Origin: a virus
IMG/VR virus record: IMGVR_UViG_3300043410_001256
Location: 1-64,000 of that record
Reading direction: 5' to 3' (one strand)
Length of the DNA stretch: 64,000 nucleotides
The position numbers and the translations under genes are program-made. Positions within the stretch are counted from its first letter, which is position 1; each line of letters opens with the position of its first letter. This document shows positions 25,955 to 54,715 of the stretch, one piece after another. Below the pieces are notes generated by a model. That model was not told the origin of the DNA, did no database searches, and saw nothing but the letters and a program-made list of their open reading frames with translations.

Positions 25955-25997
25955 GCTCCTAAGGCATTGGTTATAGCTATTTAGCCAATGTTGGAGC
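25955..25997 (-). promoter_or_regulatory. RBS-sequestering hairpin with late promoter in its loop
   Basis: Read on the minus strand: 5' arm GCTCC (25997-25993) and CATTGG (25990-25985), a loop holding GCTAAATA (25985-25978), then CCAATG (25970-25965) and GGAGC (25959-25955). The last arm is part of the AGGAGC Shine-Dalgarno, 7 bases before the ATG at 25947. Read-through RNA from upstream would fold and hide the site. RNA begun at the promoter, about 25972, would lack the 5' arm and leave it free. T4 genes e, soc and 49 are regulated this way. Confidence 0.6.
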
Positions 25998-26023: not shown

Positions 26024-27937
26024 TTAAACTGTTGGATCTGTCAGGTAAATTGCGTGAAATTTAACCTGAACGTCGGCGTATGCGCCAAGTGCTTGAATGT
26101 TCAAAACACCATAGACATCTCTGAATGTGGACCAGGTGATCATGCTGGATCCAGTTTTACTAACAAACGTGCTGGAAAAGTACCCATCCAAATCGTCGTG
26201 TACCACGTGCAGATCACCTGTTTCGTAGTTGTTGCCTGTGATTGACTTTGCTACATAGGTATACTTGGCTGATCTGTAAGCATTCGTGTACCACGAATCT
26301 ATGGTAGTTGTGGCTAGTCCAACATTTGCATAGCTTCTATCAGCAACAATTGGGTTGGTTGCTTGTGCCACTGTTCCGTTAAAGAAACGTACTTCAATGA
26401 TATCAGTTGTGAGCGGCACTGTGCTGAAGGTGATTTGATCACCTGCCACGCTGTAGGTTGTACTAGGACGTTGAATAACACCGTTGAAGTTAACCAGTAC
26501 TGCTTCTGTTGTGCTGGGCTGTGTGAGTGTAAAAGTTGCGCTGGTACCGTTTGGTACAATGGTCTGACTGGTAACGGTGGAGTTTGCAGGATTTTCCCAC
26601 TGTGTTCCATCAAACCATTCAATGGTTCCTAGTTCTGTGTTGAAACGGAAATCGCCTTGTATTTCAAAACCTGCAGACGGACGTTGTGCATCGTTACCAA
26701 CTGGCAATCGCATGGCTGATGCTGTGTCAACTACCACACGATTATAATTGTAGGGTGTCAAATACAACGGACCAGCCACGGTGGAAATTGTTGTATCATT
26801 GATGCTTAGGTCTTGGAGTCTGATTAATCCATCTTCAATTCTAGCTTGTTCTGCACCTTGTACAACAAATATAATATTTGCAGTGAACAAGTTGTCGTCT
26901 TGAACTTGTACTTTGGTATCACCTTGGAATATAGAACTGGTTGATGCAGTAGAAACTGTAATCAATCCATCAACGTATGCTTTGGTTGCCGCATCGCTTG
27001 GTGCAGTTGGAGTTGCTACGTTTCGAATATTATTATCAGACGCTGAGATAACACCAGAACCATCTGGGTTCAAAATCAAATCTTCATTGGTGTTAGCAGT
27101 AGAAATCGTGTTGTTAAGAAACGTCAAGTCGCCCAAACGTGTAATACCATTGGCACGTAGGTTAGTACCATCAAAGGTTAGATAGTTTGTGCCTTTAAGG
27201 AATCTGTTGTCTGCCGCATCAAGGAACAGCACCTGATTGGTGTTTGGACCAGTAAGTCTGACATTACCAGTGGACACCATGTTATTGGCTTCACTATAGG
27301 TCAGTGCTGATGTGGTCTTGATCCAGTTATTGGCCGCCATGAATGTAATAGCAGTAGGAGTACTATTACGAATAATAACGTTGGCTGCATCCAGTGTTGT
27401 AAATGTCTGTGCTTGTAAAACAGTTAGGTTATCAACCACCAAACTGTTGTTTGCGTTGTAAAAACGCAGAGTAGGGTTGTCAATTAATATTCCGTTTGCA
27501 GTGGTAAACGGAATTAATGTGTCTCTGAGATTACTAACTGCGGCCGTGGTCAGTGTGGCTAGATTGTTTACAGTTAAGAAAGTAAAAGTAGCAGGACGAG
27601 GATTTATTCCTCCAATCACAGTGCCATCAACACGACCACTGATAACATTGGCGTTGATAACCGTTACGTTGGCAACACCATTTGCATTTAGTGTAAGATT
27701 CTGATTTAATCCTTGTGTGGTAACAAGTGCGCCAGCATCAAGTACAACGTTACCTATTGCGGCATTACCGTTGACGTTAAAGACAAATGGACCACCAGAG
27801 CCGGCACGTAAAGCCATGCGTATGTTAGTAAAATCTAAGTTTACTAACGGTGCCGCTCCACTTACAAAATTTAGATCAATGCCTTGGCGATCTAAGTTTT
27901 GTAACAGCATTGGTCCTTCAATTTGTCCAAAAGCCAT
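26024..27937 (-). CDS. Tail-fibre protein, 637 residues
   Basis: Starts MAFGQIEGPMLLQNLDRQGI and continues with beta-rich, Asn/Thr-rich repeats; residues about 300-320 contain a DAATKAYVDGLI element seen in many phage fibre proteins. The C-terminal part (about 405-637) has FRFNTELGTIEWFDGTQWENP, a FTLTQPSTTEAVLVNFNG module and AYRSAKYTYVAKS, homologous by eye to the C-terminus of the 1435-residue protein and, for the middle module, to the 142-residue protein upstream. It is probably another fibre or collar-whisker-type component sharing an assembly or tip domain. It lies 25 bp downstream of the 142-residue gene and its mRNA could run into the hairpin at 25955-25997. Confidence 0.85.
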   Translation of the reverse strand: MAFGQIEGPMLLQNLDRQGIDLNFVSGAAPLVNLDFTNIRMALRAGSGGPFVFNVNGNAAIGNVVLDAGALVTTQGLNQNLTLNANGVANVTVINANVISGRVDGTVIGGINPRPATFTFLTVNNLATLTTAAVSNLRDTLIPFTTANGILIDNPTLRFYNANNSLVVDNLTVLQAQTFTTLDAANVIIRNSTPTAITFMAANNWIKTTSALTYSEANNMVSTGNVRLTGPNTNQVLFLDAADNRFLKGTNYLTFDGTNLRANGITRLGDLTFLNNTISTANTNEDLILNPDGSGVISASDNNIRNVATPTAPSDAATKAYVDGLITVSTASTSSIFQGDTKVQVQDDNLFTANIIFVVQGAEQARIEDGLIRLQDLSINDTTISTVAGPLYLTPYNYNRVVVDTASAMRLPVGNDAQRPSAGFEIQGDFRFNTELGTIEWFDGTQWENPANSTVTSQTIVPNGTSATFTLTQPSTTEAVLVNFNGVIQRPSTTYSVAGDQITFSTVPLTTDIIEVRFFNGTVAQATNPIVADRSYANVGLATTTIDSWYTNAYRSAKYTYVAKSITGNNYETGDLHVVHDDLDGYFSSTFVSKTGSSMITWSTFRDVYGVLNIQALGAYADVQVKFHAIYLTDPTV

Positions 27938-27962
27938 TTATATTTCCTTAGCCTCGGCCGAG

Positions 27963-29419: not shown

Positions 29420-29427
29420 TATTTATG
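29420..29427 (-). promoter_or_regulatory. Late promoter (CATAAATA)
   Basis: Minus strand CATAAATA, 23 bp before the ATG at 29397 and directly after the terminator of the gene upstream. Confidence 0.75.
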
Positions 29428-29443
29428 AGACGTATAGCCAAAC

Positions 29444-29471
29444 AAAAAGAGGGCATTTCTGCCCTCTTTTT
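29444..29471 (-). terminator. Rho-independent terminator
   Basis: A perfect 12-bp stem with A5 on one side and T5 on the other, core GAGGGCA/TGCCCTC, 4-base loop. It ends the 240-residue gene on the minus strand and would act in both directions. Confidence 0.92.
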
Positions 29472-29489
29472 AGTTACAAACTATCTAGA

Positions 29490-30337: not shown

Positions 30338-30405
30338 CAGGTGCTAGTCAGACAGCATCCTGTTTAGTTAGGTACCCGGAGTAGAAATGCTCCGGGTATT
30401 TTTTT
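30338..30405 (+). ncRNA. Candidate small structured RNA (about 68 nt)
   Basis: Begins 6 bases after a TATAAT box. A first hairpin pairs CAGGTGCT (30338-30345) with AGCA-T-CCTG (30354-30362), leaving one bulged T and an 8-base loop (AGTCAGAC). A short linker follows, then a terminator hairpin with seven T. There is no start codon with a ribosome-binding site. It lies opposite to the minus-strand genes on both sides, between the capsid gene terminator and the next gene's leader. The function is unknown; host mimicry, sponge or antisense action are all possible. Confidence 0.5.
30372..30405 (+). terminator. Rho-independent terminator, plus strand
   Basis: TACCCGGAG (30373-30381) pairs with CTCCGGGTA (30390-30398), 8-base loop, then T7 (30399-30405). 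The T tract is on the plus strand although both flanking genes are on the minus strand. Confidence 0.9.
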
Positions 30406-46464: not shown

Positions 46465-47343
46465 CTACTCTTCGTGCATACCAGAACCACTGTTGGCCAT
46501 TTGTCTGGTGTAACTTGGGTTCAGGTTGTTCATTTGTAAAATGTCGTCTCTTAGGTTTTGGTTGCGTTTTTCAATATTAAGCACACGAGTAAAGCTATTG
46601 GTAATAGCCGCAGTGTAATACGCAAAAGGATTCTGTGACTTGCTTTCATCGAACTGTAATCCAATCTGACTTAACTGTAGCAGAGCCTGTGAGCGCATTT
46701 CGTCATTGTAGGTGTAACCACGCCAGTTACTACGGGTAGCATAACGTTCACACAGCTTCATAAACATGTGTGCCAGCTTGTTGGTCATTGCTCCATGCTC
46801 ACGACTGTAGTGCCCAGTCTCTGGATCGCCCTTCCAATGACTGATACCCACTGTGGTTGGCTCTAACTCGCCTTCTTCGTTTTTAACAAACTTCACGTGT
46901 TTGAAAGGAGGAAAATTAACTTTGACAAATTTAGTTGGCTTGACAACTTCTTCATCGTATTCGGTGTCAACAGACTCGTCTTCGTCTACAGGTTCGGATT
47001 TACTACGCTTTTTTGCAACTTTAACTTCTTCTTGCAGTGGCACATGTTCCCAGGTCATCACACGAAAAACAACATCTTCCTCGGGAATTTTAGTATGCTT
47101 GGGGGTAACTTCTTCTAATTTTACTTTCACACCATTGGCAATGGACTCTTCGTAGGCCAGTTTGCCCAGTCGCTCAGCACGATTTTTTCTAGCCTGCAGG
47201 ATGTCTTTTTTGGTTATTTTCTTGTTGTCAGAAATAATCATGTCGTAATCGGCATCACCAGGCGTCATAAACCAGCAGTAGGTGTTCTTGCTCTTGTGTA
47301 TTTCTTTTAATATGTCTTTGTTATTCAGATAGTTGTGTTTCAT
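46465..47343 (-). CDS. 55: Late transcription sigma factor gp55-like
   Basis: The start is placed at the ATG at 47343 (292 residues, SD-like AAGGA upstream). A longer open frame back to 47403 could only start at TTG and adds a hydrophobic stretch across the divergent promoter. The C-terminal 130 residues resemble T4 gp55: KLAHMFMKLCERYATRSNWR, YTYNDEMRSQALLQL, then SQNPFAYYTAAITNSFTRVL and NIEKRNQNLRD, a sigma region 2-type fold that melts TATAAATA promoters. The central part (about 115-150) is acidic and linker-like. T4 gp55 has 185 residues, so there is an added N-terminal half. It would activate the late promoters in this window. Confidence 0.9.
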   Translation of the reverse strand: MKHNYLNNKDILKEIHKSKNTYCWFMTPGDADYDMIISDNKKITKKDILQARKNRAERLGKLAYEESIANGVKVKLEEVTPKHTKIPEEDVVFRVMTWEHVPLQEEVKVAKKRSKSEPVDEDESVDTEYDEEVVKPTKFVKVNFPPFKHVKFVKNEEGELEPTTVGISHWKGDPETGHYSREHGAMTNKLAHMFMKLCERYATRSNWRGYTYNDEMRSQALLQLSQIGLQFDESKSQNPFAYYTAAITNSFTRVLNIEKRNQNLRDDILQMNNLNPSYTRQMANSGSGMHEE

Positions 47344-47366
47344 TTGTAATAAAATCCTTATAAAAC

Positions 47367-47391
47367 TACCTGTTATTTTAACAGGTAAATA
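47367..47391 (+). promoter_or_regulatory. Hairpin/late-promoter element A
   Basis: TACCTGTTA (47367-47375), TTT loop, TAACAGGTA (47379-47387), then AATA. The 3' arm runs into GGTAAATA (47384-47391), a late-promoter-like octamer 26 bases before ATG 47418. Same length and layout as element B at 54691. Confidence 0.65.
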
Positions 47392-54309: not shown

Positions 54310-54684
54310 ATGGCATTATTCAAAGGTTTCAGCACCTACAACCGCAAAAAACAGTTCAGGCTAACTGACTTTGAATTAGTCAAACAGGACCTGTTTAACC
54401 ATTTTAACATTCGCAAAGGCGAAAAACTCATGCGCCCAAACTTTGGAACCAGCGTGTGGGACTACTTGTTTGAGCCGTTTAGCAGTGAAATAACCGAAGT
54501 TATACGTGAAGAAATTGGTATAGTTGTAGGCACCGATCCGCGCTTAAAAGTTGAAAAAATATCAATTAATTCCTATGATCAGGGACTTGAAGTTTCAATC
54601 AAATTGATCTTTGTGCCGCTGAATCTAGCCGACGTCCTGTATCTAAAATTTGACCGGGACAATCAAAAACTTGTAGCGTCCTGA
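54310..54684 (+). CDS. 25: Baseplate wedge gp25-like
   Basis: A 124-residue protein (T4 gp25: 132). FELVKQDLFNHFNIRKGEKL, then MRPNFGTSVWDYLFEPFS, EVIREEIGIVVGTDPRLKVE and IKLIFVPLN mark the GPW/gp25 family, a lysozyme-like fold without the lytic residues that connects wedge, sheath and hub. It lies 9 bp after the spike gene and before gp6, the standard partner order. A hairpin/promoter element follows, 7 bp after its stop. Confidence 0.95.
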   Translation: MALFKGFSTYNRKKQFRLTDFELVKQDLFNHFNIRKGEKLMRPNFGTSVWDYLFEPFSSEITEVIREEIGIVVGTDPRLKVEKISINSYDQGLEVSIKLIFVPLNLADVLYLKFDRDNQKLVAS

Positions 54685-54690
54685 TTAAAG

Positions 54691-54715
54691 TACCAGATTT
54701 TAGATCTGGTAAATA
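54691..54715 (+). promoter_or_regulatory. Hairpin/late-promoter element B
   Basis: TACCAGAT (54691-54698), TTTAG loop, ATCTGGTA (54704-54711), then AATA. The end forms GGTAAATA (54708-54715), 20 bases before ATG 54736. The stem has compensatory changes relative to element A at 47367, with identical total length (25). Confidence 0.65.

Follow-up and report, generated by a model that had tools for sequence, protein, structure and literature searches.

A probable T4-type late promoter between the arms of a leader hairpin at a phage fibre gene, with a hairpin that is probably incidental

The locus and its virus

The window, the whole stretch of 64,000 nucleotides analysed here, comes from a virus record of 94,879 bases. 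Judged by its genes, the virus is distantly related to T4: PHROGs families were matched by the portal, the head protease and the major head protein, and the head genes stand in T4 order. Jumbo phages such as PA5oct and Phosso have major head proteins that share 65-70% identity with the one encoded here; the window also has SbcC- and SbcD-like genes. No close DNA relative was found among annotated phages, and no match to the leader sequence in genome_contigs.

The features of interest lie on the minus strand (Table 1), where a gene for a fibre-like protein starts with an ATG at 25947-25945, 3′ of a hairpin. The protein weakly resembles cyanophage fibre/structural proteins and has nine relatives in viral contigs; a Pfam search with it gave no match. 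Read letter by letter, the minus strand has GGCTCC AA CATTGG CTAAATAGCTATAA CCAATG CCTTA GGAGC TTAAATA ATG. The two pairings described in the initial annotation, GCTCC/GGAGC and CATTGG/CCAATG, are thus present, and the octamer GCTAAATA does stand between the arms. The loop is 14 nt long (25984-25971) and contains CTAAATA.

Table 1. Minus-strand features at the fibre locus and related features of the window
Feature	Position	Strand	Remarks
Fibre-like structural protein, 1435 aa	21640..25947	(-)	Start MAVTRIKNNQI conserved
Hairpin 3′ arm	CCAATG 25970-25965 + GGAGC 25959-25955	(-)	Belongs to conserved leader
Shine-Dalgarno AGGAG	25956..25960	(-)	AGGAG or AGGAA kept in relatives
Expected late transcription start	25972	(-)	6 nt after octamer, predicted
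T4-type late promoter octamer GCTAAATA	25978..25985	(-)	CTAAATAG or CATAAATA at same place in all relatives
Hairpin 5′ arm	GCTCC 25997-25993 + CATTGG 25990-25985	(-)	Extendable to GGCTCC
Late promoter CATAAATA	29420..29427	(-)	Likely source of read-through mRNA into fibre gene
Intrinsic terminator	29440..29472	(-)	AAAAAGAGGGC-AGAAAT-GCCCTCTTTTT; closes off head-gene transcription
gp55-like late sigma factor	46465..47343	(-)	phrog_12791 E 1.4e-77, phrog_234 E 7.7e-24

Past the terminator and the promoter at 29427, only structural genes are met up to the fibre gene. As a strong terminator is followed at once by a late promoter, read-through into the fibre gene would be late mRNA. The last gene before it, of 637 aa, has its stop at 26024, about 25 nt ahead of the hairpin. 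Neither this gene nor the two preceding it has its own NNTAAATA, so all three are probably read from 29427 toward the fibre gene. At 27938-27960 (-), at the start of the 637-aa gene, TATAAATG overlaps the ATG; orthologues of this gene (e.g., L002, L005-L008 and L010) do have a late promoter before the start. On the plus strand at 30370-30401, just past the minus-strand major head gene, a 14-bp hairpin and its T run resemble a terminator.

The late promoter

That the site is a T4-type late promoter, as had been proposed, is strongly supported by the presence of a late sigma gene, by the placement of the motif genome-wide and by its conservation in every relative. The octamer GCTAAATA by itself is not above chance (1 found vs. 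2.5 expected); it is the placement of the core that is telling. NNTAAATA sites concentrate right before genes: 15 of 31 TAAATA sites lie 15-45 nt before a gene start, where 0.27 would be expected, and TAAATA ranks first among all 15 permutations of the hexamer for such placement. In the fibre family, TAAATA is found 24-78 nt before the ATG in all 30 distinct leaders, nearly all of which were gathered by Shine-Dalgarno and N-terminal sequence only, so that TAAATA was not selected for.

The promoter belongs to the already known T4 type. It shares with the gp55-dependent late promoters of T4 (consensus TATAAATA) the TAAATA core, the position right before structural genes and a gp55-like sigma encoded on the same contig. 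It differs in that the first two bases of the octamer vary widely here (GC, CA, AA, GG, TA, CT). Late transcription in T4 starts about 6 nt past the octamer. With this spacing, the gp55-like sigma would probably direct the host RNA polymerase to GCTAAATA, and an mRNA begun near 25972 would have a leader some 25 nt long that includes the Shine-Dalgarno AGGAG. As a set, the 15 well-placed sites, the late sigma gene and the 30 family leaders help to annotate uncultivated distant T4 relatives.

Two late promoters elsewhere in the window (GGTAAATA), at 54683-54715 (+) and 47362-47391 (+), are fused to the 3′ end of a hairpin, TACCAGAT-TTTAG-ATCTGGTAAATA and ACCTGTT-ATTTT-AACAGGTAAATA, respectively. 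The hairpin at 47362-47391 also scores as a minus-strand terminator.

The hairpin: fold, chance and conservation

The minimum-energy fold of the region consists of exactly the two helices (-14.0 to -14.9 kcal/mol), and in it the Shine-Dalgarno of the longer RNA is paired. Against shuffled sequences the strength of the hairpin is borderline: the 47-nt hairpin has a z of -1.84, with 14 of 200 shuffles equally good, and a 79-nt version a z of -2.44 (4 of 200). With shuffling confined to the 40 nt upstream of the octamer, the Shine-Dalgarno was buried equally well in 11-16% of cases (p 0.11-0.16), and when this flank was swapped for random genomic 40-mers, in 9%. It should be noted that the site was chosen after the fact.

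We found no sign that such flanks are a general property. A flank-shuffle test on 90 late promoters of the family contigs gave nearly uniform p values (11 in the lowest tenth vs. 9 expected), and the idea that late promoters in general are enriched in flanks that hide the Shine-Dalgarno was rejected. Among 120 loci with CTAAATAG and GGAGC, judged by eye, the surroundings were heterogeneous and an upstream GCTCC was rare. The Rfam search found no family here; a match to 5.8S rRNA (16.9 bits vs. a gathering threshold of 42) is due to chance. Stems around the octamer in the MAIGRV orthologues of the upstream gene (L006, L002 and L007) were a first impression, and values for the full set are not low.

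From the octamer onward, the leaders of the closest relatives are identical to that of the window at 31-36 of 36-38 positions, and the 22-nt flanks at 10-15 of 22. In L142 the 3′ arm is exact and the 5′ arm is altered to GGATCC (at the same place) and CATCTG; in L134 and L158 GGCTCC is retained and the inner helix lost; in L002 both helices are lost. The promoter stays in L142 and L002, where the 5′ arm is gone. Since the 5′ arm varies while the 3′ arm is fixed, pairs break without compensation, and neither a compensatory change nor covariation between the arms was found in the close relatives. Pairing in eight leaders is 64.8% vs. 64.3% in shuffled columns, which is no excess, and the covariation score is 0.166 vs. 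0.160. The pairing is thus not kept in close relatives, unlike what is reported for the leaders of T4 gene e (PMC3014915). The strongest point left in favor of a role for the hairpin is that, of the five closest leaders, three keep GGCTCC.

Possible roles of the hairpin

We favor the view, with a probability of roughly three in four, that the locus has a late promoter and leader of the ordinary T4 type, and that the hairpin is incidental or, at the most, dampens translation slightly. The promoter part of this reading is what motif, conservation and sigma gene point to from the sequence. In the longer RNA the hairpin would most likely serve no early-to-late switch. At most, it may lower fibre translation from the late polycistronic mRNA begun at 29427, on which a modest effect is possible.

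The initial annotation had instead proposed a timing switch with T4 genes e, soc and 49 as precedents: the longer RNA hides the Shine-Dalgarno, and the late-promoter RNA, free of the 5′ arm, is translated. The precedents are sound, as inhibitory leader hairpins are documented for e, soc, 49 and I-TevI (PMC3014915, PMC2988022). The likeness is close in that the Shine-Dalgarno lies in the 3′ arm and the 5′ arm precedes the late start; the geometry is exact, with the octamer in the loop and the predicted start bordering the 3′ arm. It does not extend to the setting. Reviews place the hairpin-controlled late genes of T4 on long transcripts of the early or middle class (PMC2988022, PMC3014915); genes e and soc do lie behind non-late genes (nudE and segF/56/dam, respectively). 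Here, the upstream genes are evidently late structural ones, the sequence does not place the fibre gene on early- or middle-promoter transcripts, and no early read-through that would need silencing is evident.

Folding both RNA forms, a check suggested with the proposal, upheld the pairing of the Shine-Dalgarno in the long RNA; the difference from the short RNA turned out small once coding sequence was included. Opening the Shine-Dalgarno is predicted to cost 4.5-5.8 kcal/mol in the long RNA and 0.7-4.5 in the short one, depending on the coding length included. With the RNA ended at the AUG the difference is about 4 kcal/mol, which would favor a switch, but it falls to 0.2-3.4 kcal/mol with at least 12 coding bases, because the short RNA also pairs GGAGC with codons after the ATG. 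To call the read-through mRNA untranslatable, as was done, is too strong. Run on T4 leaders, the same computation yields 9-11 kcal/mol with gene e and about 0-3 with soc, so the value predicted here is far below that of e and near that of soc. Since soc is a documented case (PMC3014915) and also computes small, the computation neither proves nor excludes a switch. A local hairpin could also form first, during transcription.

The retained GGCTCC in L134 and L158, the minimum-energy fold and the score of the 79-nt version speak for more than an incidental hairpin. Against these stand the unconserved 5′ arm, the flank-shuffle p and the late genes upstream, and the timing switch is thus unsupported; we think it unlikely. 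A true switch would bring a device known from T4 to a structural fibre gene. A related idea, that in a T4-like jumbo-type phage a late promoter nested in a Shine-Dalgarno-hiding hairpin uncouples fibre translation from the late polycistronic mRNA, with an arm that turns over quickly between relatives, strikes us as rather doubtful. In a balancing device within late mRNA, the hairpin would cut fibre translation from the 29427 mRNA so that output hangs on the gene's own promoter. The probable reading of three upstream genes from 29427 fits such a device, but the 5′ arm is again unconserved and the promoter is kept in two relatives without it (L142, L002), making it highly improbable. Finally, the position of the hairpin so soon after the 637-aa stop might suggest a terminator or 3′-end element of that gene. 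No T run follows, however, the stem overlaps the next gene's Shine-Dalgarno, and the hairpin is absent from a terminator scan, albeit one that allows loops of 3-8 only and missed the terminator at 29472; this role is barely credible.

In a fibre-gene relative, L147, near 13366 (-), a perfect 8-bp stem, TCCTACAT/ATGTAGGA, surrounds CATAAATA and has the Shine-Dalgarno in its 3′ arm; it is the strongest case of its type seen (shuffle p ≤0.02). In L153 near 2250 (-) and L139 near 5036 (-), whose leaders are otherwise diverged, TAAATACTCC sets an anti-Shine-Dalgarno CTCC right after the octamer and upstream of the expected late start. The predicted long/short difference for these two leaders is about 6 kcal/mol.
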